This document shows, piece after piece, positions 1 through 58,811 of a stretch of DNA of 64,000 bases. The translations under genes were made by a program, and so were the position numbers. Every line of letters starts with the position of its first letter. The first letter of the stretch is position 1. Location of the stretch: positions 20,407 through 84,406 of the IMG/VR virus record IMGVR_UViG_3300036770_008728, one strand, 5' to 3'. Under the pieces are notes generated by a model that was not told the DNA's origin, searched no databases, and saw only the letters and a program-made list of their open reading frames with translations. This stretch comes from a virus.

Positions 1-17
1 CGAGCTTCACCGGCCAT
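1..17 (-). CDS. 5' end of a late (probably tail) gene, partial
   Basis: Only the first five codons (M-A-G-E-A) lie inside the window and the gene continues off the left edge. The call rests on the leader AGGATTAACAAACATG on the minus strand (about 15-31), the same leader that precedes about 30 other genes here. It follows the head/connector genes of the late operon, so a tail gene is the likely identity, by inference only. Confidence 0.55.
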
Positions 18-71
18 GTTTGTTAATCCTTCAATTGTGATAAAATCAGCTATAAACGGAACAATATAATC

Positions 72-413
72 ATGCTAAAAAATATAGCCGTTAGCGTCCC
101 GAGTGAGGTGTATGAAATACTGAATTCAATGACAGTATCATCACCCCGGTCATTACTCAGTATAAAGTTACTGAGAGCCTTTTTCAAAGAGAACCCACCG
201 CTTCGGGATATGTCAGGCCTTTTGGACCAAGACACGCATTCCTTCACTCTGCGCATTCCCCAGGATCTCATCGAACAACTGGAGCGGTTTGCTAACCGTA
301 TGGCCTACAACCGCCATACGGCTCTGCTGGTCGCTCTGGTCGCTCAGATTGCTGCAGAGCAGCCTTACTTCAGAGAACCGACATCAATGCCGGCCGGTAA
401 CGTAAAGTGGTAA
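72..413 (+). CDS. Ribbon-helix-helix-like DNA-binding protein, opposite strand in late operon
   Basis: The 113-aa protein has two segments with the strand-helix-helix pattern of RHH (CopG/Arc-like) regulators. The first is residues 4-37 (IAVSVPSEVYEILN onward). The second is clearer, about residues 57-96 (HSFTLRIPQDLIEQLERF onward). It is read against the surrounding late genes and its 3' end overlaps the tail of the convergent gene 365-877 by 49 bases. The Shine-Dalgarno is weak (GGA) and a TATAAT at 65-70 lies too close to the ATG to serve this start, so the start is uncertain. An RHH protein would bind a palindromic operator as a dimer; the target is unknown. A similar multi-RHH protein is at 11891-12622. 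Confidence 0.55.
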   Translation: MLKNIAVSVPSEVYEILNSMTVSSPRSLLSIKLLRAFFKENPPLRDMSGLLDQDTHSFTLRIPQDLIEQLERFANRMAYNRHTALLVALVAQIAAEQPYFREPTSMPAGNVKW

Positions 414-877
414 GCCATAGTAGGTGTTACTGCCCAAGGCTGGCCACAATACTCAGCTTCGCTTAACATAAATTCAATGCAGGATAGTTTATCCAACTGA
501 TTGAATTTCTCTGCGAGACCTAACGCAAAACCCAAAAGATGCGACGTATCATATTCTGTCGCTGCCTTAGCTTTCGCACGATAACCCTCCAGAGCTTTTT
601 GCTTATCACGCACGGCCAATAACCGGATTTCGACCCGACCGTTGTAACGCTTTAAAAACTCAGCAATCGGAGTTTCAACTACCCGATTGTGGGTTTCTTT
701 TAAATGTTTCTGACCCAGTACCTTGAGCTTGAAAAGAGCACTAAATGAACCCTTGGATTCAATGGCTACTTCGCGCTCACGGTCATACACAGCGCCATGG
801 CTGAACTTACCCGTGAGCCGGATTAACCAGCTTACGGGATGATTCCCAATGGCGAACAACGTTTCTACATACTGCAC
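365..877 (-). CDS. Late protein, possible NlpC/P60-like or YiiX-like cysteine amidase
   Basis: The 170-aa protein starts at GTG 877 behind a strong AGGAGG site with 5-base spacing. It has a histidine in GKFSHGAVYD (about residues 24-33) and a cysteine in LSCIEFMLSE (about 131-140). That His-before-Cys order with hydrophobic surroundings recalls permuted papain-like amidases of the YiiX type, which often sit in phage tails and cut peptidoglycan peptides. The similarity is judged by eye and the catalytic assignment is tentative. It is the last complete gene of the minus-strand late series in the window. Confidence 0.45.
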   Translation of the reverse strand: MQYVETLFAIGNHPVSWLIRLTGKFSHGAVYDREREVAIESKGSFSALFKLKVLGQKHLKETHNRVVETPIAEFLKRYNGRVEIRLLAVRDKQKALEGYRAKAKAATEYDTSHLLGFALGLAEKFNQLDKLSCIEFMLSEAEYCGQPWAVTPTMAYHFTLPAGIDVGSLK

Positions 878-886
878 AGGGACCTC

Positions 887-4000: not shown

Positions 4001-4018
4001 AGAAGCTCCAGAAGTACT

Positions 4019-4038: not shown

Positions 4039-4053
4039 TTATTAGTTCAAGGC

Positions 4054-5271: not shown

Positions 5272-5317
5272 GCTTGTTAATCCTATTCTAATTTTAGTGG
5301 AGGCGGGCTAGGCCCGC
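5272..5317 (-). promoter_or_regulatory. Stem-loop plus conserved leader in front of the capsid gene
   Basis: On the minus strand GCGGGC-CTA-GCCCGC (about 5303-5317) is followed by an AT-rich stretch and then TAGGATTAACAAGCATG. This is the same hairpin-then-leader design used at many plus-strand unit boundaries, which shows that the signal also serves late genes. Confidence 0.6.
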
Positions 5318-5332
5318 ACGACCAACGAGCTG

Positions 5333-5731: not shown

Positions 5732-5737
5732 GGGTCC

Positions 5738-6886: not shown

Positions 6887-6939
6887 GTTTGTTAATCCTC
6901 AAATTGTCTATTTATGCTAGAGCATTTTATTTCGAACTT

Positions 6940-11082: not shown

Positions 11083-11215
11083 GCTTGTTAATCCTCTGAT
11101 TGTATTGCCTGATTTTGTGCGGCAATTTCAGTATATCACCGGATAATTTGAATGTGGAACGGCAATATTCCGGTATGATTCACTGGAAAGTAACACATCG
11201 ACAGGATTAACAAGC
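11083..11215. promoter_or_regulatory. Divergent late/early control region with mirrored leaders
   Basis: This 133-bp gap separates the leftward endolysin gene from the rightward gene at 11216. Each flank ends in the same leader AGGATTAACAAGCATG facing outward, so the two starts are mirror images. A leftward extended -10 candidate (TGATATACT on the minus strand, about 11130-11138) would drive the lysis/head operon. A rightward -10-like TATGAT is at 11174. No good -35 boxes are visible, so the promoters may need an activator. Confidence 0.5.
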
Positions 11216-11778: not shown

Positions 11779-11830
11779 GCAATGCAGGTTTCGTATGGCA
11801 ACAACAGGGAGTGGAACACCTCAGGTTCGA

Positions 11831-11856
11831 TAAAAACCCCTCAGAGGCAGGGGCTT
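11831..11856 (-). terminator. Terminator of the multi-RHH regulator gene
   Basis: On the minus strand CCCCT-GCCTCTG-AGGGG is followed by TTTTTA, about 35 bases after the stop codon of the gene at 11891-12622. Confidence 0.75.
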
Positions 11857-11890
11857 AAGAATCGGAGTCTTTGATGTTCCGCTTTTTAGG

Positions 11891-12622
11891 TTACGCCTGC
11901 GCCACTCCAATGGCAACCAGAATTTTCATCAGCGCCTGAGACCGGCTGCAACCAAAAGCCGATTCGATTTCCCCCAGTAATTCCACCTGCCAGGGTAGCA
12001 ATGAAACCGCCATCACCGGCCGGTCAGTCCGACCAGATTCCAGCTGAAAGTTGCTGCAGTCCACAAACGGAACCGGGTTGTCCGCATACTGTTTCATCCA
12101 CTTCCGCAGCAGGTTCCCATACTTGGCGCCGTAATCCAGTAACCGGCTTTCCAGTTCAGTTGTCAGTCGAATGGGTGCCCTTTGTCCCTGCCCAGACTTC
12201 GGCCGACCCTTTGTTTTGGTCTCAGGTTTAGTTTCATCGGGTAAGGTCGGAGCCTTGGCCACCACCGGTAACTTGGCCAGGTCCTTCCCATGCCGGTAGT
12301 TCAGGCCCGACCAAAAGAGCAGGTCCGCGGCCGCGACCAGCGTCGTGCCATGCTTCTGAGCAAAGCGCTCGACCAGACCGGCCGTTTTCGCACTCACCCG
12401 AATCGACTCCGTTGGCCGGCTCGACTTCAGCCCCAAGGCATCATGCCGGCTCACCCCCTTCAGCAGCCCCAAGGTCACCAGCTCGTCCGGGTCCAGCCCG
12501 TCCAGCAAAGCGGCCAGAGGCAGCTCGTCATCCGCCGGACTGTGGACGTGAAGTTTTACCCGAGTCTGAAGCGGGGCGGTGTTTGGGTGTTGGAGGTGGT
12601 TCAGGGGCGGGCTGGTATCCAT
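11891..12622 (-). CDS. Regulator with three ribbon-helix-helix-like segments
   Basis: The 243-aa protein has a disordered Pro-rich N-terminus and then three strand-helix-helix segments: ESIRVSAKTAGLVERFAQKHG (about residues 72-109), RAPIRLTTELESRLLDYGAKYG (about 146-178) and RPVMAVSLLPWQVELLGEIES (about 199-240). A Lys/Gly/Pro-rich linker (KPETKTKGRPKSGQGQR) lies between the first and second. Multi-RHH chains are unusual, since the fold normally dimerises. It is a lone leftward gene with its own terminator, divergent from 12858. The palindromes in 13602-14673 are possible targets. Confidence 0.6.
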   Translation of the reverse strand: MDTSPPLNHLQHPNTAPLQTRVKLHVHSPADDELPLAALLDGLDPDELVTLGLLKGVSRHDALGLKSSRPTESIRVSAKTAGLVERFAQKHGTTLVAAADLLFWSGLNYRHGKDLAKLPVVAKAPTLPDETKPETKTKGRPKSGQGQRAPIRLTTELESRLLDYGAKYGNLLRKWMKQYADNPVPFVDCSNFQLESGRTDRPVMAVSLLPWQVELLGEIESAFGCSRSQALMKILVAIGVAQA

Positions 12623-12857
12623 GGCATACCTCTAAATTTTTAAAATTTTTTCCGGGAGCTATCTTACCCCACATCGCGCTTCGGACACAATAGCACAGAA
12701 AAAACCTGTACACCTTGCCAGATATTGCCATAATGCAAGGGCAGACCAGCTGCAAACGAGGCCCACCGGCTTCGACGCTCTAGTACTGCCCTTAGCCAGG
12801 ACACGGTTGGAAACTTCCAACCGAACCGAACCAAGCCAAACAATGGGATTAATAAAC
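12623..12857. promoter_or_regulatory. Divergent promoter region
   Basis: This 235-bp gap lies between the RHH regulator (-) and the gene at 12858 (+). It holds a rightward promoter candidate (TGTACA at 12707, 16-base spacer, CATAAT at 12729), a direct repeat TTGCCA-GATA-TTGCCA (12715-12730) that could be an operator, and a leader variant GGGATTAATAAACATG at the rightward start. The minus-strand start has AGAGG upstream. Confidence 0.35.
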
Positions 12858-13601
12858 ATGAACAAATTAGCTGCTTTCTCTAAAAACATCGTTGCTGCAA
12901 TGGAATCTCAGCGCTCCGGTGCGTTGGTTGTAAATTTACTGCTGACGCAGCTGCAGGTAGGTCAACCAGCTTTAACTACTGCTGACTGCTGGACTTTGGT
13001 CGGCGGTGCGGGCAAACCAACCAAAAAGAATTCGTTAGTTTACTACCGCGCCAGTTCACTGCAGAAAACCGCTAAGCAGGTGAGCGAGATTTTGCAACAG
13101 CCAGCGGCAACAGATTGGGATCAATTCAATACGCTGCTGAATGCCGTTGACTTTGCGGATGAACAACTGCAGGCCCAACCGGCATATCTGGCGCTGCAGG
13201 GCTTCATTGCAATGAAAGGTTGTCATGCCTGCAATGGTTCTGATATCCGTGAATTTATCGCCACATTGCGCCCAGCCAGTGAACAACCTGCAGCGGGCAA
13301 AGCACAGGGCACAGAATCACAGCAAACAGCCACAGCCAGCGCACCGGACACGGTATCAGCTGAGGCCGGCACCACAGCGGGCAACACTGAAGCGGAAATT
13401 GATTTAGCCGCGTCAATGCTGGCAGATCTGGCAACGGCGGATAATATCGTTGGCAAAACTATTGCCAGCCTGATCGGCCTTGATCCGGTTGTTGCCATGC
13501 AAAAACTGGCTGAGGCTTGGCAGGCTGACCGCGCCAGACTGCTGAAAGAGATCAATACTCTCGAAGCTGCAGCGGAAAAACGCGAGACCAAAGCGGCGTA
13601 A
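12858..13601 (+). CDS. Unknown early protein with Ala/Glu-rich linker
   Basis: The 247-aa protein is not recognised. Residues 1-145 look globular, with cysteines in MKGCHACNGSD (about residues 117-127). Residues about 145-195 are low complexity (Ala, Thr, Gln, Glu). The rest is helical and ends in a charged coiled coil (DRARLLKEINTLEAAAEKRE). The ATG at 12858 is chosen over 12807 because it is preceded by the leader GGGATTAATAAAC. A stem-loop follows the stop. Confidence 0.55.
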   Translation: MNKLAAFSKNIVAAMESQRSGALVVNLLLTQLQVGQPALTTADCWTLVGGAGKPTKKNSLVYYRASSLQKTAKQVSEILQQPAATDWDQFNTLLNAVDFADEQLQAQPAYLALQGFIAMKGCHACNGSDIREFIATLRPASEQPAAGKAQGTESQQTATASAPDTVSAEAGTTAGNTEAEIDLAASMLADLATADNIVGKTIASLIGLDPVVAMQKLAEAWQADRARLLKEINTLEAAAEKRETKAA

Positions 13602-13884: not shown

Positions 13885-13924
13885 AAGAGAACCATTTCAT
13901 TAATGGTTAGGATCTGAACCTAGG
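13868..13924. repeat. Nested inverted repeat (cruciform-capable)
   Basis: The outer arms CCTAGGTTC (13868-13876) and GAACCTAGG (13916-13924) are perfect complements. Inside them AACCATT (13890-13896) and AATGGTT (13902-13908) form a second stem with a 5-base loop. Confidence 0.75.
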
Positions 13925-14317: not shown

Positions 14318-14673
14318 AACTAATCAGCATCTGACCCGCTACAGCCCTACTCCCACAAGGCTTTCAGGCGTTCAGACCCTAACCCTTTTTCACAGTCACA
14401 CCCTTATTTTGACCCCCGCAAGCAGCTGGGTGTGGCTGTGGTTTTTATTCCGACGCTGACCTGACCACTGCGCCAGGTTGTGTCCTTTGTGGCCTGGGGC
14501 GCGTTCAGACCCTTTTGCCTACCCTGAAACTGGTGTTTTTCCGACTTATAATTTTGACCCGCTCAAACCCTTGAATTTGCGCGAGTTTTGGAATTTGGAC
14601 GGTTTTTCACCTATGAATTAATCGAAAAATTTGGGTAGTAACTTGCCCACCAATCAAAATTAAGGATTAACAA

Positions 14674-14973: not shown

Positions 14974-15058
14974 TGGTGCTTGACGAATGTGGTGTGGGTA
15001 GTATCTTTCTGACCGTCACCTGACATTCAGGGACAGAACAATTAGGGATTAACAAAAC

Positions 15059-19393: not shown

Positions 19394-19787
19394 CTTAAGC
19401 CTTATTGTAATTATCTGTTAAGTTCTGATTATTTTTCGCTCGAAACCCTAGAAAATCATCTTTTTATCTAATTTCCGTAAGATTTTCTGTATAAAAATTC
19501 GACACTTGTCCAATTAAATTGACAAGCGATTATGTATAGTCTGGGCACAAATGACAAGGTGGATTGTCTGTTATTTGTACTATTTAGCCATTAGGATTTA
19601 AAACAAAATTAAGAGCGCCAAAGGGCGAACTTTTAGTGTCAGAGGGATTTGCACGGATCGCCACTGACCATTAGGATTAACAAACATCTGTTTGTCATGG
19701 GGCTGTACATCGGCCCCTATAACTTGCTCTGTAAACCGGAGCCATTTGCTTCTAAAACGAAGTAACGAACCATTAGGATTAACAATT
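19394..19787. promoter_or_regulatory. Lysogeny-switch control region with TTGTC/GACAA operators and three leader copies
   Basis: A 20-bp dyad TTGTCCAATTAAATTGACAA (19506-19525, 8 of 10 positions symmetric) is followed by a second pair, GACAA (19553-19557) with TTGTC (19564-19568). A -10-like TATAGT is at 19535. Three leader copies lie here: GCCATTAGGATTTAAAACA (about 19586), ACCATTAGGATTAACAAAC (about 19668) and the one used by 19788. A small hairpin ACAAAC-ATCT-GTTTGT and a second, GGGGC-TGTACATCG-GCCCC, follow the middle copy. An open frame of 22 codons starts at 19697 but is not supported otherwise. Confidence 0.6.
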
Positions 19788-20120: not shown

Positions 20121-20171
20121 TCGGAGCCCTGTAAACCGGGGTTTTTTTGACTAACCATTAGGATTAACATC
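20121..20171 (+). promoter_or_regulatory. Terminator-like stem-loop plus conserved leader
   Basis: CCC-TGTAAACC-GGG with a run of seven T (20127-20148) is followed by ACCATTAGGATTAACATCATG. This looks like termination of the preceding unit and translation start of the next. Confidence 0.6.
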
Positions 20172-20947: not shown

Positions 20948-20967
20948 CAATCAGGGGATTAACAAAC

Positions 20968-21517: not shown

Positions 21518-21561
21518 TCCTGTACATCGGGACTGTCACTAACCATTAGGATTAACAAATT
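21516..21561 (+). promoter_or_regulatory. Stem-loop with TGTACATC loop plus conserved leader
   Basis: AGTCC-TGTACATCG-GGACT (21516-21534) uses the same loop as the hairpin at about 19699-19717. It is followed by AACCATTAGGATTAACAAATTATG. Confidence 0.6.
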
Positions 21562-23127: not shown

Positions 23128-23182
23128 GGCCCCCGCCAAAGGGGTGGGGCCTTTAGTACCCTAACCATTAGGATTAACGAAT
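23128..23182 (+). promoter_or_regulatory. GC-rich stem-loop plus conserved leader
   Basis: GGCCCC (23128-23133) pairs with GGGGCC (23146-23151) around CGCCAAAGGGGT, then CTTTAGTACCCTAACCATTAGGATTAACG. It shares GCCAAAGGG and the CTTTA-TACC stretch with the elements at 23991 and 26526. Confidence 0.65.
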
Positions 23183-23990: not shown

Positions 23991-24041
23991 CCCCCGCCAA
24001 AGGGTGGGCTCTTTACTACCAACCATTAGGATTAACAAATC
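23991..24041 (+). promoter_or_regulatory. Weak stem-loop plus conserved leader
   Basis: CCCCCGCCAAAGGGTGGGCTCTTTACTACC precedes AACCATTAGGATTAACAAATCATG. It is a close relative of the elements at 23128 and 26526, with a weaker stem. Confidence 0.55.
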
Positions 24042-26525: not shown

Positions 26526-26573
26526 GGTCCTGCCAAAGGGTGGGACTTTCACAACCATTAGGATTAACAAACT
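26526..26573 (+). promoter_or_regulatory. Stem-loop plus conserved leader
   Basis: GTCC-TGCCAAAGGGTG-GGAC is followed by TTTCACAACCATTAGGATTAACAAACTATG; it is the third member of the GCCAAAGGG family. Confidence 0.6.
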
Positions 26574-27044: not shown

Positions 27045-27068
27045 TCAAACAATTCGGGATTAACAAAC

Positions 27069-29514: not shown

Positions 29515-29542
29515 CCCGCAACAACCAGAAGGATTAACAAAC

Positions 29543-30661: not shown

Positions 30662-30692
30662 TTCAATTCAACAATCAGAAGGATTAACAGAC

Positions 30693-30947: not shown

Positions 30948-31108
30948 GCAACGTAAATGCTTTCGTTGAAAGTGAAAAACTGTTTGAAGAATTTGGTGAA
31001 GAACATCCTGAATATGCCCGCTATGAATGGGAATCCGCCGTGGTCAATGGTGAAACCATTCTCGGTTACTGGATGTGGGTTCAGGACCAGATAGAACAGT
31101 CCAAGTAA
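30944..31108 (+). CDS. Small acidic protein
   Basis: The 54-aa, acidic and aromatic protein (FEEFGEEHPEYARYEWESAV, GYWMWVQDQIEQSK) has its ATG in the stop of the previous gene. It ends the unit. Function is unknown. Confidence 0.5.
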   Translation: MSNVNAFVESEKLFEEFGEEHPEYARYEWESAVVNGETILGYWMWVQDQIEQSK

Positions 31109-31118
31109 AACAAAAAAC

Positions 31119-31162
31119 GCCGGCGGCAACCGTCGCCGGCACAACAATTAGGATTAACGAAC
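31119..31162 (+). promoter_or_regulatory. Stem-loop plus conserved leader
   Basis: GCCGGCG (31119-31125) pairs with CGCCGGC (31134-31140) around GCAACCGT, then ACAACAATTAGGATTAACGAACATG. The A-run before the stem makes it a terminator on the minus strand. Its stem is identical to the one at 32197. Confidence 0.65.
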
Positions 31163-32185
31163 ATGAACATGCGTTTTGAATTTCCGGCAGTCAAAGGTCG
31201 CCAGGGTGACCGTGATTTTTATATTGCCTCTATCCCATTTTCAGTACTGGGACGTCTTTTAGAAATTGATGCAGGTAACCCCCTGCAACGAAGCCAGCGC
31301 GTCGTTGATGCTGGCCGAGCAACGGCGATTGTCGATTACTTCTATCAAAACAACGACAACTACGTGCTTCCAAGTTTAACTGGCGTGGTTGAAGACCCCA
31401 GTTTGGATTTCAAAGATGTCGGCGGTGGCGCCGGAGTTTTATCACTGAAGATGGATGCCATCATCAAGCTGTTTGATGGACAACACCGTGCGACGGCTAT
31501 TACTTCAATTGTGAAATCACATGCTTTCCGCAGTAAATGGGAAGACCAGACCATTGGTGTGCAGCTGTTTGTTGGCATGACCTTGCCACAACGTCAGCAG
31601 GCGTTCTCCGATATCAACAGCAAAGCCAAGGCCGTGAGTAAGTCCCTGAACCTGGCCTACGATGTCCGCGACAAAACAACGGCTGAGTTCCGGCAACATG
31701 CTGAATGGGTGTTCGGGATCCATGTGGACTACGAAAAGAACATAGCGACGAAGGGGCAACTGACGTGGTTCAGCTTCAAACATGTTGTGGATTGCTTCCG
31801 GCTGCTCTGTGGTATGAAAGCCAAAGACAAGTTTACCAAGGCGTCCAGTGAATTAATCATGCGTTGGTTTAACCATGTGGAATTGCGTCGGTCCTGTGAC
31901 TGGAATCATGGCCATAAACCAGATCATATCAGCCGAACGGCACTGGGCTTGCTGGCACTGACTCGCGTCTTTAACTATGCCCATTCGGCTCAGATCACTC
32001 CAGACGAGCTGGCTGTCAGCTTGGCTAAAATTGATTTTAACCGTGAGAACCCGCTGTGGTTAAACGTCTGTGTGGATGCGAAAGGCCGGATGATTGCGAA
32101 CCCGCAGTCAATTAAGGCCACGGCACGGAAGATACTGGAAGCCTGTGAATACACAGTCCCAGCGGATTGTCCGGCTCTTCAGTAA
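31163..32185 (+). CDS. DGQHR-domain protein (DndB-like)
   Basis: The 340-aa protein has the signature FDGQHRATAI (104-113). Around it is the family pattern of DndB-like proteins: RSQRVVDAGRATAIVDYF, QQAFSDINSKAKAVSKSLN and a helical C-terminus. DndB regulates phosphorothioate DNA modification in bacteria, and the DGQHR fold is related to ParB-type proteins. No dndCDE or dpd partner genes are in the window. It forms its own unit between two identical-stem cassettes. The molecular role in phage is open. Confidence 0.8.
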   Translation: MNMRFEFPAVKGRQGDRDFYIASIPFSVLGRLLEIDAGNPLQRSQRVVDAGRATAIVDYFYQNNDNYVLPSLTGVVEDPSLDFKDVGGGAGVLSLKMDAIIKLFDGQHRATAITSIVKSHAFRSKWEDQTIGVQLFVGMTLPQRQQAFSDINSKAKAVSKSLNLAYDVRDKTTAEFRQHAEWVFGIHVDYEKNIATKGQLTWFSFKHVVDCFRLLCGMKAKDKFTKASSELIMRWFNHVELRRSCDWNHGHKPDHISRTALGLLALTRVFNYAHSAQITPDELAVSLAKIDFNRENPLWLNVCVDAKGRMIANPQSIKATARKILEACEYTVPADCPALQ

Positions 32186-32196: not shown

Positions 32197-32241
32197 GCCG
32201 GCGGCAAAGGTCGCCGGCATCAACCATTAGGATTAACGATC
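32197..32241 (+). promoter_or_regulatory. Stem-loop plus conserved leader
   Basis: GCCGGCG-GCAAAGGT-CGCCGGC (32197-32218) is followed by ATCAACCATTAGGATTAACG. The same stem and similar loop as the element at 31119 bracket the DGQHR gene. Confidence 0.65.
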
Positions 32242-33348: not shown

Positions 33349-33391
33349 GTCGGGGCAAAGGCCCCGACTCTCTAACCATTAGGATTAACAA
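33349..33391 (+). promoter_or_regulatory. Stem-loop plus conserved leader
   Basis: GTCGGGGC-AAAG-GCCCCGAC (33349-33368) is followed by TCTCTAACCATTAGGATTAACAAATG. The leader is shortened so that its own AAATG provides the start. Confidence 0.7.
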
Positions 33392-36000: not shown

Positions 36001-36090
36001 AAGTTTGGGGGGCTTTTCGTACCCCCAAACTTCGTTAAAATACGCCAAGGACGACAAAGGTCGGCCGTTAAATGATTAGGATTAACAAAC
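36001..36090 (+). promoter_or_regulatory. Strong terminator, second hairpin and conserved leader
   Basis: AAGTTTGGGGG (36001-36011) pairs over 11 bp with CCCCCAAACTT (36022-36032). A second hairpin CGAC-AAAG-GTCG (36052-36063) and the leader ATGATTAGGATTAACAAACATG follow. The AAAG loop recurs at 33357. Confidence 0.7.
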
Positions 36091-39136: not shown

Positions 39137-39236
39137 CCAATTAGATCAGATACACATTCTAATTAAAATGTGTGTCTATATAATTAGAACCGAGGGTCTG
39201 ACCCGCTAAAAACAATCAAAATTAGGATTAACAACC
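39137..39236 (+). promoter_or_regulatory. AATTAGA-rich control region with copy 2 of the 25-bp element
   Basis: AATTAGA repeats at 39139 and 39182 and its inverse TCTAATT at 39158 form overlapping dyads: TTCTAATTA (39157-39165) with TAATTAGAA (39181-39189), and AGATACACATT with AATGTGTGTCT around them. The 25-bp element (39179-39203) provides TATAAT and the palindrome GGGTCTGACCC (39194-39204). The leader AAAATTAGGATTAACAACCATG follows. It is likely a promoter with operator. Confidence 0.6.
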
Positions 39237-39660: not shown

Positions 39661-39708
39661 AGCATCTCCACAATCTGGGATTAACAATCATAATCGAGGT
39701 AAAAAATC

Positions 39709-40662
39709 ATGACTATGAACATTGACGCCATGATCGCAAACGCTAATCAATCTGCTAATCAACAAACTCAACAAGCGGTCACTATCGACCAGACCGTTGT
39801 CCACACTCAAACTGTAAATCAAGCTCAGAATACCCAGGTAGACGTCGTTGACGACGAAGAAGCTGAACTGATGCGTCAGTTAGAAGCCAAACGTGCGGCG
39901 AAAGCGGCCGCGGCAGCGCAAGCAGCCAGCCCTCAAGCCGGCCAAGCTGTGAGTCAGGTTCAACCACAGTATCTGCCTGCAGGTGCCCAGCAAACTGTCG
40001 CTGTTCAGCAAAATGCTCAGGTCCCTGTTGCAGGTGCCACCGGTGCGGCGGCTCTGCCAGCGCACTTAGCGGCGTCGTTAATGCAGCCGATGAGCATGGA
40101 TATGGAAACCTTCATGTCCATGGGGATGTCGGTGGACCTGTGGCTGAAGCCAAGTTATGCCGGCCTGACTGTGGGTGACAATGCCACACCAGTACCTCAC
40201 ATGGATGTCGTTATTGATATGACTGAAAAAGTGGGTTTCCAGCTGGCCATGGCTATTCGTTATGGCAGTGAGCCAAATGTGAAGTACGACTACACCCATG
40301 ACTGCGTGACAAACAAAGATGGCCGCCCTTGGGCGGATGCTTTGGCTTTAGCATATCAACTGGATCCTAAAGTCAGCCCATACCGCTGCGTTCAGCTGCC
40401 GATGGTCGTGGCAGACGAAACTAAAAACTTCCAGAACCAGGTTGTTGCCCTGCCGGGTCAAACCGTGGGTTACACCACCGCTGTTACCGGTTGGAGTGCA
40501 TGGCAGAACTTCTACATGCAAGTTCAACGGGCAGGACTACTGGGCCATAAGGTGAAAGTTCGCCTGACCAACGAAGCGAAAATGAAAGACACCAACAAAT
40601 GGGGTCTGATTAAGTTTGAGCTTCTGGGTGTTGCTGACGCGACACAGCAAAAAACAGCGTAA
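39709..40662 (+). CDS. Unknown replication-region protein, possible single-strand DNA-binding protein
   Basis: The 317-aa protein has residues 1-60 rich in Gln/Asn, then a charged helix (EEAELMRQLEAKRAAKAAAA), a Gln/Ala/Pro linker to about 125, and a folded C-terminal domain from about 135 with beta-rich pattern (LKPSYAGLTVGDNATPVPHMDVVIDM, KVKVRLTNEAKMKDTNKWGLIKFELLG). Position just before the 5'-3' exonuclease and polymerase suggests a DNA-binding accessory, perhaps SSB-like. The leader GGGATTAACAATCATAATCGAGGTAAAAAATC is followed by ATG with GAGGT as ribosome site. Confidence 0.5.
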   Translation: MTMNIDAMIANANQSANQQTQQAVTIDQTVVHTQTVNQAQNTQVDVVDDEEAELMRQLEAKRAAKAAAAAQAASPQAGQAVSQVQPQYLPAGAQQTVAVQQNAQVPVAGATGAAALPAHLAASLMQPMSMDMETFMSMGMSVDLWLKPSYAGLTVGDNATPVPHMDVVIDMTEKVGFQLAMAIRYGSEPNVKYDYTHDCVTNKDGRPWADALALAYQLDPKVSPYRCVQLPMVVADETKNFQNQVVALPGQTVGYTTAVTGWSAWQNFYMQVQRAGLLGHKVKVRLTNEAKMKDTNKWGLIKFELLGVADATQQKTA

Positions 40663-40670: not shown

Positions 40671-40730
40671 GGAGGCCGGCAAACGCCGGCCTCCACAAAC
40701 AATTCGGATTAACAAACAAGCAGGTGACCT
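40671..40730 (+). promoter_or_regulatory. Very stable stem-loop plus conserved leader
   Basis: GGAGGCCGGC-AAAC-GCCGGCCTCC (40671-40694) is followed by AACAATTCGGATTAACAAAC and then AGCAGGTGACCT before ATG 40731. Here the leader is separated from the start and a normal AGGTGA site is used. Confidence 0.65.
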
Positions 40731-42544: not shown

Positions 42545-43459
42545 ATGTTTTTTGAAAATCTGAAGATTTACCGTGTGACTGAAAAGCTCCCGTTTGTTAA
42601 AGACGAAGACGCGCTTCAAGCCCAGTTGGAAGAGCATCAGTTCACTCCCTGCATGGCACATGACATGTTGAAGATGGGCTTTGTATCTCCGTTGGTTCCT
42701 GGCGGTAAGCAGCTGTTCCGAAACGTCGGCGGTAACTACTACTTTGCCCTGAAGCGTCAGTGGAAGGTGTTGAAGTCCACCATGATCAACGAGCAGCTGC
42801 AGCCGCAGATCACCCAGAAAGAACAGGAACGGGGCCGGCCGCTGGGACGTAAAGAAAAGTCGGGTCTGAAAGATGAAACCATCCAAAGTCTGTTGCCACG
42901 GGCGTTGACCGAATCATCTACTATCGTTGGGATGTATGTCCCGGCGAAAGACCTGCTGATTTTCAATACCAGCAGTCATGGCCGTGCTGAAGACTTTATG
43001 GCTTTGTTACGTAAAGCTCTGGGCAGTTTACCCGCGGTACCATGGTTTGATGCGAACAAACTGTCCTTTGCAATGAATTCCTGGTTGGGCCAACAACACC
43101 TGCCACAGGATTTTGTGCTGGGTCACACCGTAGAGCTGAAAGCGCCCGATGAAGACGGTGCAGTGGCACAGTTCAAATCTCACCTGTTGACCGGCGCCGA
43201 CGTTCAAAGCCATTTAGAAGACAAAATGGTGACGAAGCTGGAGCTCTATAAGCCTGAGCATTTAAGTTTCACGATTGTTGAAGATGGCCGGATCTGCAAA
43301 CTCCGCTGGCGAGAGCTCCTTATTAACCAGAACGATGAGCTGGGCTGGGAAGATTTGGAGGCCCGACTTGAAGCAGACAGTCTGCTGATGTTGGATACCA
43401 TTACAACTTTGTTGGACAAACTGACGGGCTCAATGCAAGCCGTTGACGACGCAGCGTGA
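42545..43459 (+). CDS. rdgC: RdgC-like recombination-associated protein
   Basis: The 304-aa protein aligns by eye with E. coli RdgC along its length: FFENLKIYRVTEKL, FTPCMAHDMLKMGFVSPL, LKDETIQSLLPRALTESST, AEDFMALLRKALGSLPAVP, and DKMVTKLELYKPEHLSFTI. RdgC binds double-stranded DNA as a ring-shaped dimer and limits RecA action. A phage copy could hold back host recombination at replicating phage DNA. It is encoded between thyX and the polymerase behind AAGGACCTCCT. Confidence 0.85.
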   Translation: MFFENLKIYRVTEKLPFVKDEDALQAQLEEHQFTPCMAHDMLKMGFVSPLVPGGKQLFRNVGGNYYFALKRQWKVLKSTMINEQLQPQITQKEQERGRPLGRKEKSGLKDETIQSLLPRALTESSTIVGMYVPAKDLLIFNTSSHGRAEDFMALLRKALGSLPAVPWFDANKLSFAMNSWLGQQHLPQDFVLGHTVELKAPDEDGAVAQFKSHLLTGADVQSHLEDKMVTKLELYKPEHLSFTIVEDGRICKLRWRELLINQNDELGWEDLEARLEADSLLMLDTITTLLDKLTGSMQAVDDAA

Positions 43460-43465: not shown

Positions 43466-43507
43466 GGGTGGCTTCGGCCACCCCTTTAAAATTTGGGATT
43501 AGCAAAC
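43466..43507 (+). promoter_or_regulatory. UUCG terminator plus leader variant
   Basis: GGGTGGC-TTCG-GCCACCC (43466-43483) followed by CTTT ends the thyX-rdgC unit, and TTTGGGATTAGCAAACATG starts the polymerase. Confidence 0.75.
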
Positions 43508-46727: not shown

Positions 46728-47359
46728 AAAAAGACTTTCAACACAGTGACTCAGGTACCGATGAGGAACTGAAGAATCTATGGCAAACGCCGCCTTTTGT
46801 CAGAGCCTGGGTGATGAATCAATACCTGATTGGCTTTGATACCGCGGCGGATGCTGACAACTGTCTGGTACCGAACTTCTGGTGCGAGGAAGACAGTGCA
46901 CTGGAAAAGATGTGGTACCCATTGTCGGACCCCAATGCGTGGTACTGGTGCAATCCACCATACGACAACATTGACCCATGGGTGCAGAAAGCTGTCCAGT
47001 CAATGGTGCTGGGTGGTCGGGTGCTTATGCTGGTGCCGTGTGACTTGACGACAGATTGGGCGGGGATGTCTATCAACATGTCCACCATGATTAATCATCT
47101 GACGGGGCTCCGCATTAATTTCTCTGATCCCATGGCACCAAAGACGGGGAAGGAACGGAGCCAAAACAATAAGGGTTCAGTGCTGTATGAGTTTGATGGT
47201 CACTGCTTTGAGTACAGCGGCCAAAAGCGCACGACCTATCTGAACTGCAGAGAAATTAAACGGGTGGGGAATTTACTACTGAAATCAGTCAGTGATGACC
47301 TGTGCCGGCTGAGAACTCCATTTGCAGAACTGATTCAACCAGTAAGACCAAATTTATAG
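46724..47359 (+). CDS. Phage DNA N6-adenine methyltransferase (Dam family)
   Basis: The 211-aa protein starts at GTG 46724 (or TTG 46718) overlapping the preceding stop. Phage Dam pattern: LWQTPPFVRAWV, FDTAADADNCLVPNFW, then catalytic WYWCNPPYDNIDPWVQKA (NPPY), VLMLVPCDLTTDW, and a C-terminal RINFSDPMAPKTG. It methylates adenine, likely to protect against host restriction. It is the second methyltransferase in this phage. Confidence 0.8.
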   Translation: MKKDFQHSDSGTDEELKNLWQTPPFVRAWVMNQYLIGFDTAADADNCLVPNFWCEEDSALEKMWYPLSDPNAWYWCNPPYDNIDPWVQKAVQSMVLGGRVLMLVPCDLTTDWAGMSINMSTMINHLTGLRINFSDPMAPKTGKERSQNNKGSVLYEFDGHCFEYSGQKRTTYLNCREIKRVGNLLLKSVSDDLCRLRTPFAELIQPVRPNL

Positions 47360-47371
47360 GATTAACAAAAC

Positions 47372-49726: not shown

Positions 49727-49768
49727 TTTTAAGACTACCATTTAATAACAATTTGAGGATTAACAACT

Positions 49769-50356: not shown

Positions 50357-50414
50357 TTTTAGGATTAACAAACAGGCCCGCAAATGCGGGCCTACCTGTG
50401 AAATAGGTATTGGC
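50357..50414 (+). promoter_or_regulatory. Leader followed by a stem-loop in front of the primase-helicase gene
   Basis: TTTTAGGATTAACAAACAGG is followed by AGGCCCGC-AAAT-GCGGGCCT (50374-50393) and then ATG 50415. The order leader-then-hairpin is reversed compared with the other cassettes, so this gene may be held back or regulated differently. Confidence 0.55.
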
Positions 50415-53400
50415 ATGTCAAAGCATCCTCAGATCACACTTAGTGTGTTCACGAAGTTTTCAGGACCGCTGACCAAACAACTGAGCCTGGTGAATGGCAA
50501 GGTTAACAGCGATAGTAGTGAATGTCGGATGTCAAACGGTCTGGCTGAGCGCATCACCCTCCCATTTGACCAGTTGCCCCAGTTCTTTAGTAGCCTCAAC
50601 CCAATGCAAGCTGTTGCGACTGGTTGGGTTACGACTGAAGCCGCCACTGTAGAAATTATCACTAAAGACAAATTTGAAGATAATAACTACCTGTTCCCGG
50701 CGCACGTTACTCCACAGGGTGTCTTCGCAACACGAACCCTGAAATCTATCGGCCAGTCAGGCCCATCTCTGGTTATGTTCGACCATGACCATGACGAATT
50801 CTCACCACACAATGTGCATACGCCAGAGGAGTTTATCCAGCTGCTGAGCACCGTGGTACCCGATTTTGACAAGATTACGTTCCTGCGGACTTACTCAACT
50901 TCATCGTCTGTCTATCATGCTAAGACCGGTGAGTGTCTGCGGCCGGCGGATGGCTTCCATATTTACATGGCTGTGCCAGATGGTGCGGACGTACAGCGCT
51001 TTGGTGAAGTGCTTGAGAAGCGGCTGTGGCTGGCCGGCCTTGGCTATATCAAGGTTAGTGCTCGGAACGGTAGCTCACTGAAACGAACCGTTGTAGATAC
51101 AGCGGTATTCAGTCCTGAGCGTCTGATATTCGAAGCAGGGGCAGTAATCGTCCCAGGTAATCCGATTGTTCAGCGACTGCCGCAGCCGGAATTTGTTGAA
51201 AAAGCCCTGTCGTTTTTGGATACCACAAAGCTGCTGGATCTGACTGATGATGAGGAAGAGGCTTACCAGCAAGCGGTAAAGCAGGCACAGAATACTGATG
51301 TGGTGCTGGCCTCCAAGCAACAAGTTAAAGAGCGCCTGACCGAGGATTACATTGAGCAGGCCCGCCGGCAAGGTAAGATTTTATCTCGTCGCAGTGCTCA
51401 GAAAATGGTGGAAGGTCTCGAAAAGCATATCCTCCCACCATTTCATCCAATCATTCTGAGTGATGGTACTCAGGTCTCCATCCTGGAGCTCGTCAGTAAT
51501 CCAGCGAAGTACGATGGTCGCAGCTGCTTTGACCCGCTCCGGCCGGATAAAGGTGCTGACCGCGCCAAGTTCTACGCCAACTTAGACCAGGCTGTACCAA
51601 ATCCGGTTATCCACTCGTTCGTGGAAGGCTCACGGAACTTCAACCTCCGCGAGAGTATGAAGCTGCTGGCCCAGAACATTACCGAAGATGACGGTGATGA
51701 CCTGCGGGAAATTGCGAACACTTTCACTACGATGAACCAGCGTTATGTCACGGGCATCCAGCTGGCTCCGGGTTGGAATCTGGTAAAAAGCGATAAAGGT
51801 ACCGGCAAAACAAAAGAAATTGCCGGCGTGTTGCGGGAATCCAAGATGTCGATCTTGGCGGTGACTCACCGCGTCAGTTTAACGCACTCAATCAGCCGGG
51901 ACTTTGGTCTAGCCTGTTACAACGAAGCGGAAGTCAGCGCCAGCCACGTTCTGCGCTCACAGTCCCGCCTCGGCATCTGTTACGACAGTCTGCATAAGAT
52001 TGCGGGCCAGACCTATGACGTTGTGGTGCTGGATGAAGTGACGCAGCTGATGCGCCACGTTAAATCCGGCTCAGTGAAGCAGAAGTTCATCTGTTTGAAC
52101 GTTCTGCGGAGCATCCTGTTAAACGCTAAGTACGTGATTGCCATGGATGCGGATTTGGCCGTGCCGTTTGTGGAGATCCTGCGGGACTCAGAAATCGGCT
52201 GGATGAAACCTGCAACCCCAATCAGCGTTTTCGTGAACAGCTACAAGCCGGCAAAAGAACAAAAACGTCAACTTCGGGTCTATACTCAGGATGGTTCTAA
52301 GCCAAGCGAGGTAGGCTGGACGTTGGCATTACTGGAGCATGTGCTCGACAACGGAACTTTCGTAGCGACCAATTCAAAGACGAACACCTATGACCTGGCC
52401 AACACTATCGGCCGGCAGTTGGGTATGGAGCCGACCCAGATTATCAGTGAAGGCCATTTTATCACCGAGATAAAAGGGCGCCGGATTATTACCATCACCT
52501 CGGATAACTCCGGGGATGAGCAGGTAGCCAACTTCATCACGAACCTCAACGAAGAGCTGCGGGATAGCGATATCCTGATTGCATCACCATCAGTTGGTAC
52601 AGGCGTATCCATTAACGCTGTCAACGACCAAGCTCGGTTCAGCCGGACGTTTGGCCGGTTTACTCGGCGGGCCGGTAACACCTCGGGTGACTGCAGCCAG
52701 CACTTAAGCCGGGTTCGTGAGTGCCGTGAGTTTGATTTGGTGGTAATGGACACCTCTGAAATGGATGACGTCGACCCGGATATCATCATCCAGAAAGCCA
52801 TCATCAATAAACTGCGGGTGATTGACCGTCAGGTGGAATTCACTGATTTGAACTTCTGCCCATTTACTCGGAAGTACCAGTTCAGTGACGGCTCATGGTC
52901 ACAGTGGTTGGGTAAACTCACGGCGCTGGAAAATCTGGATCGTAATGAGTTCACCAGCAACATTCTGAACCGGCTGGTCGACGAGGGTTATTCCATCGAG
53001 TATCTGGAATCCAAGGTGAACAGCGCCAAGGCTGAAGAAATCAAAGAAGGCATGGAGCTCGTCATTGAAGAGCGCAAAGCCTTTGAACTCGAACAGCTGC
53101 AGAACGCCACTCTTATTACTGACGAAGAACTGGAGACTTTGGAAACGAAGATCTCCCTGACTGTCGAAGAAAAACGCCAATTGAAGAAGCGGAAAACCGC
53201 GGACACGTTTGGCGCCTATGAACATGAACCGTTGGCTGAACTCCTGGCTCTGCCTAAGGAAAGTTACAACAGCCGCCGTAACGGCCTCATGTTCGGTATG
53301 AATGGTGAAACCCTGTTCGTCATGGACTTGGTTAACCGGTTAGACCCAGAGAAGCAGCACATCGAGAAGACCGCTCACTTTGCGAAGTGGAACCTTATGT

Positions 53401-53930: not shown

Positions 53931-53945
53931 CACATCTATTTGGAG

Positions 53946-54461
53946 ATGCGGGTGGTGAATAAGCCTATTCTAACTTTGAAACGGAATCCGACTGGGGCAG
54001 CAAAGTCCCGGTCGGCAGAAACGTCAAATTTCTCAAAACCAAAACCGGTTGAGAAGGTTCAAGCTTATCACGACTTGGGTCGGGTAATGGCCGAGCTCCG
54101 GAAAATGGGATACAAGGTGCGCTGGAAAGAGCCCCTGTCCAAAGCCATTTACCAGGAGATTCGGGCGGTACTGCCCAAAGAATTCATCTCCAGTCGGGCA
54201 CTTTATGATGCAATCGGTTACTTGGTGAAATCTATCAAGTACCTTCTGAAGATGCGGGATGGTGCGTTCCGTTACAACCTGGCCGGCAAGAAAGCCGGGA
54301 CTGTAACCGCTGAAGAATCCAAATTTGCACTGCAGGAACTGCTGAATCATCACGGTGATTACATGCGGGAACGTCGCCAGAGAGCAAAGAAGATTATCAC
54401 AGCGCACAAGCCATCTCGCTCAGGCGGACCACATGGCAAAAAACACGGGAAAGACCTCTGA
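53946..54461 (+). CDS. FinO/ProQ-domain RNA-binding protein
   Basis: The 171-aa protein has a basic disordered N-terminus (LKRNPTGAAKSRSAETSNFS). Its central domain follows the FinO/ProQ pattern: VRWKEPLSKAIYQEIRAVLP, FISSRALYDAIGYLVKSIKYLLKM, GAFRYNLAGKKAGTVTAEESKFA. The C-terminal tail is basic (RERRQRAKKIITAHKPSRSGG). Such proteins bind stem-loops with 3' tails and act as RNA chaperones. ATG 53946 is used (TTG 53940 is an alternative). It overlaps the next gene. Confidence 0.75.
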   Translation: MRVVNKPILTLKRNPTGAAKSRSAETSNFSKPKPVEKVQAYHDLGRVMAELRKMGYKVRWKEPLSKAIYQEIRAVLPKEFISSRALYDAIGYLVKSIKYLLKMRDGAFRYNLAGKKAGTVTAEESKFALQELLNHHGDYMRERRQRAKKIITAHKPSRSGGPHGKKHGKDL

Positions 54462-54843: not shown

Positions 54844-54855
54844 TGACCTTTGGTT

Positions 54856-54927
54856 AAGCGGGGGGCCTTCCCCCGTTTAGTTTCAGGCTCATCATTAAAA
54901 ATTTTGGATTAACAAACAGGAATCATC
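54856..54927 (+). promoter_or_regulatory. Terminator plus conserved leader
   Basis: CGGGGG (59-64 within this stretch: 54859-54864) pairs with CCCCCG (54870-54875) and is followed by TTTAG, then ATTTTGGATTAACAAACAGG and a normal start at 54928 with GGAATC. Confidence 0.6.
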
Positions 54928-56031: not shown

Positions 56032-56040
56032 GAGCAGGCC

Positions 56041-58248
56041 ATGTTAAAGCATATTAAGTACGATCTGGAATTCTCTAATGGTGCCCGCCGTAAAATGGAC
56101 ACCGAACTGTTAGCCGGCTCAACACTCATCACCGGCAAGAACGGCCGCGGCAAATCCCTAATTTTGGAGATGTTTGGCTATCTGCTGTTTGGTTCTCAAG
56201 CGCTGCGGGGTGTAGCCGCCGACTATAAAAAGATGAATGTCGAAGGTACGGTCACCATTCGTGGCCGGGACTATAAAATTGTCCGCTCGAAGTCAAAGGC
56301 GGATATTTTTGATGCCGACGGTAATGTCATCGTCACCAGTACATCCGCGGTTAACGAGCACATTACGCAGCTTCTGGGATACAACTATGATGTGTTCCGT
56401 ATCAGCAATTGGTGTGCCCAAGGGGATATCCAGGCACTGGCCAACATGAAACCAACCGAGCGGAAGGCCATGATCGACAACGTGGCCGGTTTGACGCAGC
56501 TGGACGGTCTTATTGAAATCACCAAGCAGAGCATTAAGGTTCTGAAGGCTTCGGTTAGCGCCGTTGAAAATGCGCTGGTAAAACCGCTGGAGCCAACTAA
56601 ACCTGAGGTGGCCAGGAGCTGGGCGGTGGATTCGCTTGAAGAACAGAACACTTATTTGAGTGCCGCTCAGCAATCAGAAATGAAGCTGAACATGTTCCGT
56701 GTGCCACTGGCGGGCGAGGCCCCGGCTAAAGTGCGTGATCTGGTCCTGCCGGACGAACCAGTTCCGGCGCCACTGCCTCAGCTTGGTGACGCGCCGGCGA
56801 AACCAGAACCACGGCCTTTGCCGGTGTTTGAGCGTGAGAAACCGTTCAATAGTCGTGTGGGAGAGGGGGATACCCAGACGCTTCTGGACCGGGTTCTGGA
56901 CCTGCAAGTGAACCAATTCGGGCCAAAGTACAACAAGCTGAAAGAACTCTATGCAGGGATGTACAACCGCAAGCAGCATGTGTCTGACGAGATGTTGGCC
57001 CTTTGGAGGGGCAATCCTGATTTAGATTATTGGGACGAACAGCTCCAGCAATGGCGCAATAAACAGAGCTATGAGCAGTTGCTGGCTCAAGGTGATGTTA
57101 CTTGTCCAAGCTGCCAACACAGACACCCCGTGGCGGCGGAGGCACTTGCCAAATTTAACCCTGGGTTATTTCCAAAAGCTCAACCACCAGGACATACGGA
57201 GATCCGAATCGCTCAGGAGTACTGCCAGATTGAGGCGCAGTACACAAAGCTGATCGAAGAACTTACCACCATTTTTGGCGGTGAACCTGATGCCGTAGAT
57301 AAGCAGCTGGAAGAAATTCGGGTTGAGCTGGTGAACCACAAACAGGCCGAGGCCGAATATGCTCGGGCACTGGAACATCACCAGCAGCAGTGCCAATTCA
57401 TCGAGCAGAACAACCAGCAGGCGCTTGATAACTGGAAGCAGCAATGTGACAGTCGGTTGGTTCAACATCAGCAAATGGTGGATACCGTTCGCCAGAATAA
57501 CGAGCAGCGCCACAAAGATTGGCTGGCCCAGTGCAACCAACTCCGTCAGTCGCATCAACAATCCGTGGATGCCGCTAATTTGGCTCAGCAAAAGTGGGAG
57601 AAGGACATGCAGGCTCAACGCGATGCGGAATCAGAACTGGCAGAACTGAAGCACCGTTTCGCTCAGGATTACAGCCCAGAGCGTCTGCACGAAGCCCGCC
57701 GGAGTATTGAAGAGGCTCAGAAAACGATTGCTGACTGGCGCCTGTATGACAGCTTGTTTGGCGAGTATCAGCGCCTGCTGGAAAGCTACAACCTGGCCCT
57801 CAGCCGTTGTGATAACGAACGGGCTCAAATCGAAGACCAGACTAAAGCCCAAGCCGCGCTGGTCGAGATTAAGGCCCGTGTAAAAACGTACCTCATCCCG
57901 AGCCTGAACCGGGTGTCGAGCTACCTGCTGTCAGAGATGACCGGCGGTGAGCACAGCACGGTCCTGATGGACGAGAACTTTGAAGTGTTTGTCGACGGTC
58001 AGCCATTACGCACCATGTCCGGTTCTGGCAAGGACATCACCAACCTGGCCATTCGAATCGGCCTCGGTCGGATCCTGACACACAAAGTGCTGGGTATGAT
58101 GCTGCTCGATGAAGTGGACCAAGGTATGGATGACAGCCGTGCCGCCTATACGTGGGAATGTATCGAACGCATCACCCCACAAATTGGCCAGGTACTGCAG
58201 GTCAGCCATAAAGAGCTTCGAGCAGAAAACCGGTTAGTTGTCATGTAA
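56041..58248 (+). CDS. SbcC/Rad50-like ATPase
   Basis: The 735-aa protein has Walker A GKNGRGKS (31-38), a coiled-coil middle with a zinc hook CPSCQH (about 354-359), the ABC signature TMSGSGKDITNLAIRIGL (about 658-675) and Walker B MMLLDEVDQGMDD (about 684-696). The Gln-rich coiled coil is shorter than in bacterial SbcC. It is translated right after sbcD behind AGGAGCAGGCC. Confidence 0.9.
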   Translation: MLKHIKYDLEFSNGARRKMDTELLAGSTLITGKNGRGKSLILEMFGYLLFGSQALRGVAADYKKMNVEGTVTIRGRDYKIVRSKSKADIFDADGNVIVTSTSAVNEHITQLLGYNYDVFRISNWCAQGDIQALANMKPTERKAMIDNVAGLTQLDGLIEITKQSIKVLKASVSAVENALVKPLEPTKPEVARSWAVDSLEEQNTYLSAAQQSEMKLNMFRVPLAGEAPAKVRDLVLPDEPVPAPLPQLGDAPAKPEPRPLPVFEREKPFNSRVGEGDTQTLLDRVLDLQVNQFGPKYNKLKELYAGMYNRKQHVSDEMLALWRGNPDLDYWDEQLQQWRNKQSYEQLLAQGDVTCPSCQHRHPVAAEALAKFNPGLFPKAQPPGHTEIRIAQEYCQIEAQYTKLIEELTTIFGGEPDAVDKQLEEIRVELVNHKQAEAEYARALEHHQQQCQFIEQNNQQALDNWKQQCDSRLVQHQQMVDTVRQNNEQRHKDWLAQCNQLRQSHQQSVDAANLAQQKWEKDMQAQRDAESELAELKHRFAQDYSPERLHEARRSIEEAQKTIADWRLYDSLFGEYQRLLESYNLALSRCDNERAQIEDQTKAQAALVEIKARVKTYLIPSLNRVSSYLLSEMTGGEHSTVLMDENFEVFVDGQPLRTMSGSGKDITNLAIRIGLGRILTHKVLGMMLLDEVDQGMDDSRAAYTWECIERITPQIGQVLQVSHKELRAENRLVVM

Positions 58249-58254
58249 GTCTCG

Positions 58255-58326
58255 GGTTGGCTGGGGTTGTCTCAACTCCAGCCAACCTCTATAATCAGAT
58301 TCTAAAATTAGGCAGGATTAACAAAC
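58255..58326 (+). promoter_or_regulatory. Stem-loop containing a sigma70-like promoter, plus conserved leader
   Basis: GGTTGGCTGG (58255-58264) pairs with CCAGCCAACC (58278-58287), with an inner GTTG/CAAC stem. TTGTCT (58267-58272) in the loop, a 17-base spacer and TATAAT (58290-58295) form a good sigma70-type promoter. The leader GCAGGATTAACAAACATG follows. Confidence 0.6.
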
Positions 58327-58788
58327 ATGACAGATGACGCAACTTTGCGGCTTGACCTGACACCTCACGATCTGCTCACCGAGCAAGATATGCTGGAGCT
58401 CACAGGCGTTTCCAGACCAGACATGCAGGCCCGGTGCCTGGCAGCGAACAACATCTACTTCCTTGTTAATCACAACAATATTCCAAAGACGACGTGGTAC
58501 CACGTCAATAACCCAATTCATCTTCGCACTCCCAGCTTATCCATGACCGACTTCGGCTATGGGTTCACCAAGACATTTCATCCAAAACGTGATAGCGGCG
58601 TACCTGCGGGACTCAGCCGGGACTCATGGGTAAAACGGATGACCAAATTCCTGGACAAGGTGTTTGCGAATATCGAAGAAGATGTGCCACCGCACATCAA
58701 ACAGCAAATTAAGGAAAATGCTGAACGGCTATCAAGGATGGAGGCCACTGCAGAAGAACAGCGCCAACGCAGTCAAACCGGCGCATAA
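58327..58788 (+). CDS. DUF4224-like protein
   Basis: The 153-aa protein has residues 17-66 (LTEQDMLELTGVSRPDMQAR, LAANNIYFLVNHNNIPKTTW) following the DUF4224 pattern, a short domain usually encoded beside phage integrases. The remainder is basic to helical (RMTKFLDKVFANIEEDVPP). It may regulate integration or excision. Confidence 0.65.
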   Translation: MTDDATLRLDLTPHDLLTEQDMLELTGVSRPDMQARCLAANNIYFLVNHNNIPKTTWYHVNNPIHLRTPSLSMTDFGYGFTKTFHPKRDSGVPAGLSRDSWVKRMTKFLDKVFANIEEDVPPHIKQQIKENAERLSRMEATAEEQRQRSQTGA

Positions 58789-58811
58789 AAATTAGGGGAT
58801 TAACGAACATT

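Follow-up and report, generated by a model that had tools for sequence, protein, structure and literature searches.

A conserved start-codon leader in a phage clade and a predicted phage-encoded small RNA complementary to it

The stretch of DNA analysed here, called the window, comprises bases 20407–84406 (64,000 nucleotides) of an 84,406-bp virus record, IMG/VR IMGVR_UViG_3300036770_008728. About 30 of its genes, on both strands, are headed by one conserved leader. The most probable explanation, to which we assign a probability of roughly 0.8, is that all these leaders are targeted by a single trans-acting, phage-encoded small RNA, which would repress these ∼30 mRNAs with the assistance of a FinO/ProQ-domain protein. 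Comparison with related phages brings out the leader, the architecture of the predicted RNA gene, a complementarity over the Shine-Dalgarno (SD) sequence and start codon that is matched within each phage, and the co-occurrence of the FinO/ProQ protein.

A preliminary description of the window had listed 28 leaders on both strands together with four relaxed copies. All 28 sites do carry the leader, which sits shortly 5' of the ATG, mostly at 2–5 nt, and in most of them the core is the exact sequence AGGATTAAC. This occurs 24 times in the window against an expectation of 0.30, a count reached in none of 100 shuffles, while GGATTAAC is found 33 times (1.62 expected). The core is GGGATTAAC at genes 15059, 20968, 27069 and 58812, GGGATTAAT at 12858 and GGGATTAGC at 43508. 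The four copies described as relaxed are genuine sites, but they are detached rather than degenerate: GGATTAACAA(A/T)C is intact and lies 14–23 nt upstream of the ATG at 39709, 40731 and 54928, and ∼45 nt upstream at 50415, where a hairpin occupies the space between, and each of these genes has its own SD. The retention of GGATTAAC at genes equipped with a second SD points to a role other than ribosome pairing. Missing from the earlier list were an orphan copy at 19674 and additional copies outside the window, in the first 20 kb of the record. As had been claimed, conservation is not confined to the bases that pair with 16S rRNA: the bases outside the SD (TTRAC and the flanks) are as conserved as GGA. 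SD pairing of the leaders is weak (median about -4 kcal/mol) and no better than that of other genes, and the leader regions are A/T-rich and only weakly folded (-2 to -4 kcal/mol). The leader is carried by capsid, replication and excisionase-like genes, and is absent from the genes for the integrase and the FinO/ProQ protein.

Relatives by terminase include Pseudoalteromonas phage KB12-38 (54%), Achromobacter phages JWF and 2-1, Caulobacter phage Seuss, Xylophilus phage Lumi, Acinetobacter phage EAb13 and many viral contigs. A motif-blind count of 7-mers upstream of ATGs shows GGATTGA to be start-linked in KB12-38 (30 seen, 0.33 expected), and nothing comparably strong linked to starts in JWF, Lumi, Seuss or EAb13; a search for a cognate leader in these four and in GC-rich contigs gave none as strong. 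Each leader-bearing relative has its own dialect (GGATTAAC, GGATTGACA, GGATTGACG, GGAAATTGACG or GGAAATCGACG). Directly before the ATG, the leader reads GGATTAACAAAC in this phage (W), GGATTGACA in KB12-38 (KB), GGATTGACGAT in V1 (3300019755_000002), GGA(A/G)ATTGACG in V4 (3300025065_000001), V7 (2895548450_000001), V8 (2895532408_000002) and others, GGAAAT(T/C)GACG in V6 (3300028612_002727), and GGAATCGACG in V11 (3300034044_000059, a 37-kb fragment); a further leader phage, V10, is 3300035698_011202. Complete leader genomes contain 18–36 leaders, whereas a loose leader pattern has 1–9 matches in outgroups, and also 1–9 in reversed-sequence controls. The leader is retained at orthologous genes across the clade, each time in the phage's own dialect, and is missing from most of the outgroup orthologs. 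When 75 terminase sequences are placed in a tree, the leader phages occupy one side of a single branch (support 100/100, one state change); judged from these genomes, the leader is a clade-wide trait. Rather than varying freely among relatives, the flanks vary coherently, as pairing predicts: within each phage, the bases beyond the SD switch dialect together at all sites, and such a shift calls for a trans-acting partner.

A candidate for this partner is encoded 8 kb to the left of the window, in the gap between two tail genes (record 11780–12316 and 12448–12843, minus strand). In every leader phage, the gap between the orthologs of these genes contains one antisense leader copy with no real gene behind it; a small open reading frame was considered and rejected, as what comes after the copy is either not an open frame or a short one, and varies from lineage to lineage. 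The locus is present in all 12 leader genomes that are readable there, including three (G005, G012 and a contig of a metagenome-assembled genome, MAG) that were not used to find it. There is no such gap in the four leader-less relatives with comparable flanking genes, the two genes overlapping in Lumi and Seuss and leaving no gap in EAb13 and L042. The predicted RNA is ∼75–80 nt long and consists of a 5' hairpin, a complement of the leader in the phage's own dialect (covering the SD, the TTRAC spacer and the start of the AUG) and, directly after it, an intrinsic terminator, all preceded by a sigma70-like promoter. In W it would run from 12383 to 12308, with a -35 box at 12419–12414 and a -10 box at 12396–12391 (the numbers are the same in L009); in KB12-38 it is predicted at 13,888 to 13,808, likewise on the minus strand. 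The boxes are TTGACT-17-TAATAT in W, TTGACT-17-TACTAT in KB, TTGACA-17-TAATAT in V4 and TTGACA-17-TAATCT in V6, and in 8 of 9 genomes the promoter score of the locus is attained by at most two antisense regions taken as controls from that genome. The predicted fold (5' hairpin, mostly open antileader, terminator) is better than that of shuffled sequences, with z from -3.3 to -6.8. All 8 pairs of the terminator stem form in all 10 sequences, 5 of the 8 having changed on both sides, and slid controls fail. A covariance model recovers the 12 loci at E values of 1e-8 to 2e-14, one strong match per leader genome (its training set included most of these loci or near copies), and finds nothing in five leader-less genomes; the only extra match is weak and lies antisense to a hairpin-leader unit at window 31108–31180. 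Rfam gives nothing above the gathering score in the window, and the RNA locus scores below threshold (17.6 bits vs 49.5).

Leader and RNA match each other phage by phage. The mean duplex energy of a phage's RNA with its own leaders is -20 to -28 kcal/mol, compared with -14 to -18 at non-leader starts (p 2e-3 to 1e-13). The leaders of W, KB, V1, V4 and V6 each have their own RNA as best partner, and those of G005 also favour theirs; G012 is close to a tie, and the leaders of V7 and V8 are in a practical tie with near-identical RNAs. Position by position, the conserved block stops where complementarity stops, for example reaching ATGA in V10 and V11. Three positions covary. Within TTRAC, W has A in the leader and U in the RNA, while all others have G and C. 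Opposite T[T/C]GAC, phages with A in the RNA (V4, V7 and V8 together) have leaders with 1 C and 105 T, against 15 C and 20 T where the RNA has G (V6; Fisher 7e-10), and V11, also with G in the RNA, has 8 C. At +5, the leaders of KB, whose RNA has U, show 15 A, 4 G and 3 T, while those of its sister V1, whose RNA has C, show 18 G (p 5e-7). The spacing between GGA and TTGAC (0, 1 or 2 nt) also tracks the RNA in most cases. Where leaders deviate, substitutions that retain a G-U pair are far more frequent (74/523) than those that break pairing (6/447; p 6e-15), counting one genome per lineage and leaving out V10 and V11, in which GGA is forced by the search pattern. Tolerated substitutions that follow G-U rules are not expected of a protein partner. 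On this comparative evidence the pairing of leader and RNA is strongly supported. The preliminary description had proposed a sequence-specific factor or RNA that acts on translation or processing; the coherent dialects, together with a predicted RNA gene bearing the leader complement in its own dialect, agree with this and make the factor very probably an RNA.

A candidate chaperone for the RNA is the protein encoded at window 53940–54461. It belongs to Pfam PF04352 (E 4e-11), and hidden Markov models of the solved ProQ and FinO match it at 5e-9 and 1e-5, respectively. Its predicted core has a confidence (pLDDT) above 90 and its structure matches only RocC, FinO, ProQ and NMB1681. Each of the 11 complete leader genomes encodes such a protein, as opposed to 0 of 29 leader-less relatives; two leader fragments are without it. 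By analogy with its relatives, it probably stabilises the small RNA and speeds pairing.

From these comparisons we infer that the RNA is transcribed, that it pairs in the cell and represses rather than activates, and that it is helped by the protein and has a role in lysogeny or timing. The small RNA would be transcribed from the sigma70-like promoter between the two tail genes and would end at the intrinsic terminator. Its antileader would pair with the leaders of ∼30 early, replication and late mRNAs, covering the SD and start codon and repressing translation of all targets together, with the FinO/ProQ-domain protein stabilising the RNA and accelerating pairing in the manner of FinO with FinP and of RocC with RocR. 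Because the leader regions are weakly structured and their SDs weak, covering them should block initiation. Joint repression would probably operate in the prophage state or serve to time expression; the presence of the leader on capsid, replication and excisionase-like genes, and its absence from the integrase and FinO/ProQ genes, fits a silencing of lytic functions with the maintenance genes left on.

Several observations weigh against this interpretation. V10 and V11 are exceptions to the matching of leader and RNA: averaged over their leaders, the V4 or V6 RNA is a slightly better partner than the phage's own. Both GGA and a portion of TTRAC were set by the search pattern, meaning that conservation there is partly by construction, and the tolerance of A-to-G changes in the SD spacer could come in part from a purine preference. 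The V1 promoter is no better than its own-genome controls, and the U run of the V11 terminator is poor. The 5' hairpin of the W RNA takes in half of the antileader (unpaired probability 0.34), so that a chaperone would be needed. As a clade marker, the FinO/ProQ protein represents one event on the tree rather than proof.

Sequence does not tell repression from activation, and start-adjacent pairing can in principle stabilise an mRNA. The RNA might therefore activate or protect its targets, or itself be mopped up by them, but this appears improbable: pairing lies directly over the SD and AUG, the weakly structured leader regions offer no inhibitory structure to be opened, and both FinP/FinO and RocR/RocC repress (PMC9977716). 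T4 RegA is a phage translational repressor. An RNA-binding phage protein of this kind, or a DNA-binding one, that recognised the leader would account for the coherent dialect shift at all sites, with the antisense copy as a decoy or autoregulatory site; it would leave unexplained the promoter, 5' hairpin and terminator around that copy, as well as the G-U pattern of tolerated substitutions, and we regard it as very unlikely.

Slightly less credible again is a strong ribosome-binding site of the ordinary kind, whose uniformity would be maintained, with no partner in trans, because efficient initiation is selected for. AGGA or GGAG does form an SD at a good distance, and the A/T-rich, weakly structured leaders would suit it, but SD pairing is not better than at other genes, the non-SD bases are equally conserved and change dialect together, detached copies persist beside a second SD, and leader-less relatives manage without the leader. 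As the sole cause, a plain SD was rejected on the grounds of its weak pairing and of a conservation and dialect switch reaching beyond it. The probability that the motif belongs to a promoter or another transcription element, which the preliminary description had named as the alternative, is close to nil: TTGACA in KB12-38 does resemble a -35 box, but the motif is fixed to the start codon and has no conserved -10 box downstream, where the sequence 3' of the ATG is coding and varied, while upstream sequences differ from gene to gene and hold promoter-like boxes at varied places.

The small-RNA interpretation has two close precedents. In RocR/RocC of Legionella pneumophila, a trans-encoded small RNA with a terminator and a FinO-domain chaperone represses several mRNAs at translation (PMC9977716). 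This phage would likewise have a trans small RNA, a terminator, one FinO-domain protein and several targets; however, RocR/RocC is chromosomal and has four targets among competence genes, whereas this clade has a phage locus, ∼30 predicted targets and a leader dedicated to them all, which evolves together with the RNA. FinP/FinO of F-like plasmids (and Inc/FopA) provides a mobile element that regulates itself by an RNA pairing with a ribosome-binding site and assisted by the element's own FinO-domain protein (PMC9977716), as predicted here. FinP, encoded in cis, has one target, to which it is fully complementary, in contrast to the trans-encoded RNA of this clade with its ∼11–23 nt match to many; the RNA locus is on the same strand as its two flanking tail genes and its targets lie elsewhere, unlike a cis-antisense RNA of the FinP type. 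With FinO/ProQ-assisted systems the clade shares a FinO/ProQ protein on the same element, complementarity to the ribosome-binding sites of the targets, and, in the predicted folds, an intrinsic terminator with a 3' U tail and a stretch available for pairing (exceptions being the V11 U run and the partly paired W). Other phage-encoded RNAs act on phage mRNAs, namely P22 sar, lambda OOP, VP882 VpdS and phi24B 24B_1 (PMC12197685), but these have one or few phage targets and use Hfq or no named chaperone, and none of those covered by that review has a genome-wide common target or leader.

A possible parallel that works alike, without being a member of the same family, is provided by the start-associated sequences (SAS) of cluster K mycobacteriophages, a 13-bp asymmetric repeat right before the ATG of 11–19 genes, conserved beyond the SD and of unknown function, with one opposite-oriented copy without a gene in four phages (PMC3203893). 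Both are repeats at the ribosome-binding position of many genes with one gene-less reverse copy. SAS differs in having an unrelated sequence, GGGATAGGAGCCC, which the leaders described here do not match, in occurring in unrelated phages and hosts, and in heading non-structural genes only; within the open literature covered, no small RNA has been proposed for it. In Adephagia (JF704105, L222), genes 92 and 93 are separated by a long and very stable hairpin (∼58,660–58,710, plus strand) whose loop contains an anti-SAS, CCUCCUAUCC; this is the region where late transcription starts (PMC11373665). CCUCC is the anti-SD itself, making this only a lead; SAS may be a second, independently evolved case of such an RNA system.

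The record most likely represents an integrated prophage whose right edge includes host DNA, given a tyrosine integrase at its start (L009 1–1194), excisionase-like genes at window 58327 and 58812 (58327–59021) and, at the opposite, right-hand end, a gene for lactate/malate dehydrogenase (63062–63997). A nearest-neighbour DNA search of phage records with this phage gave no match. A near-identical phage contig (L012, 97% portal identity) within a 3.3-Mb Comamonadaceae MAG has 7 motif copies before ATG, while the remainder of that MAG has just 4 unrelated matches and no motif before ATG. This indicates a phage convention and rules out a habit of the host. The features are collected in Table 1.

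Table 1. Leaders and related features, in window coordinates except for the predicted RNA gene.
Feature	Position	Strand	Evidence
Leader, minus-strand gene with start codon at 17	22..30	-	motif count and site check
Leader, major head protein gene (start 5271)	5276..5284	-	
Leader, gene 6886-5738 (phrog_37797)	6891..6899	-	
Leader, endolysin-like gene (start 11082)	11087..11095	-	
Leader, gene 11216	11203..11211	+	
Variant leader GGATTAAT, gene 12858	12846..12853	+	
Leader, gene 14674	14663..14671	+	
Leader, gene 15059	15046..15053	+	
Orphan leader then hairpin, no ATG in place; probable vestige of lost gene	19673..19681	+	
Leader, gene 19788	19775..19783	+	
Leader, gene 20172	20160..20168	+	
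Leader, gene 20968	20956..20963	+	
Leader, gene 21562	21548..21556	+	
Leader, gene 23183	23170..23178	+	
Leader, gene 24042	24028..24036	+	
Leader, gene 26574	26560..26568	+	
Leader, DNA methyltransferase gene 27069	27057..27064	+	
Leader, DNA ligase gene 29543	29530..29538	+	
Leader, gene 30693	30680..30688	+	
Leader, DndB-like gene 31163	31150..31158	+	
Leader, gene 32242	32229..32237	+	
Leader, Dda-like helicase gene 33392	33381..33389	+	
Leader, gene 36091	36078..36086	+	
Leader, gene 39237	39224..39232	+	
Detached leader, 23 nt 5' of ATG 39709 (own SD)	39678..39685	+	
Detached leader, 17 nt 5' of ATG 40731 (own SD)	40706..40713	+	
Variant leader GGATTAGC, DNA polymerase gene (ATG 43508)	43496..43503	+	
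Leader, gene 47372	47358..47366	+	
Leader, MazG-like gene 49769	49756..49764	+	
Leader then hairpin, no ATG in place, then primase-helicase gene 50415; probably left from lost or displaced gene	50361..50369	+	
FinO/ProQ-domain protein, candidate small-RNA chaperone; gene without full leader	53940..54461	+	Pfam, profile, predicted fold
Detached leader, 14 nt 5' of ATG 54928 (own SD)	54906..54913	+	
Leader, excisionase-like gene 58327	58314..58322	+	
Leader, helix-turn-helix/excisionase-like gene 58812	58797..58804	+	
Predicted antileader small RNA gene	record G000:C1:12308-12383, 8 kb left of window	-	gap between two tail genes

Other repeats and genes were seen in these genomes. GCTGCAGC is over-represented in the whole record (32 copies on both strands, 6.6 expected). 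In KB12-38 (L013/L014), a perfect or near-perfect palindrome GGGGTAACGTTACCCC occurs at 9 places, mostly just upstream of leaders, and 16 copies of GGACAGGT are clustered at 33–37 kb. The leader-less JWF (L015/L016) has GGTTCGTTACGAACC inverted repeats before several starts, and CTGCAGC is over-represented in EAb13. The window encodes DndB-like (31163–32185) and RdgC-like (42545–43459) proteins; KB12-38 has PAPS-reductase-like genes near its DndB homolog.

A Pfam search of the unassigned genes, which was not exhaustive, revealed no classical phage repressor. A tentative extension is that the small RNA and its FinO/ProQ partner form the main immunity or lysogeny switch of a temperate clade, an RNA ‘repressor’ silencing ∼30 lytic genes at translation that would also block superinfecting relatives of the same dialect; if so, each dialect would define an immunity group. 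Accounts of phage gene control usually centre on the promoter, in terms of repressors, sigma factors and antiterminators. In this clade, a single small RNA seems capable of reaching ∼30 mRNAs, early and late, through a purpose-built common leader, and leader and RNA appear to have co-evolved through several dialects within one clade.

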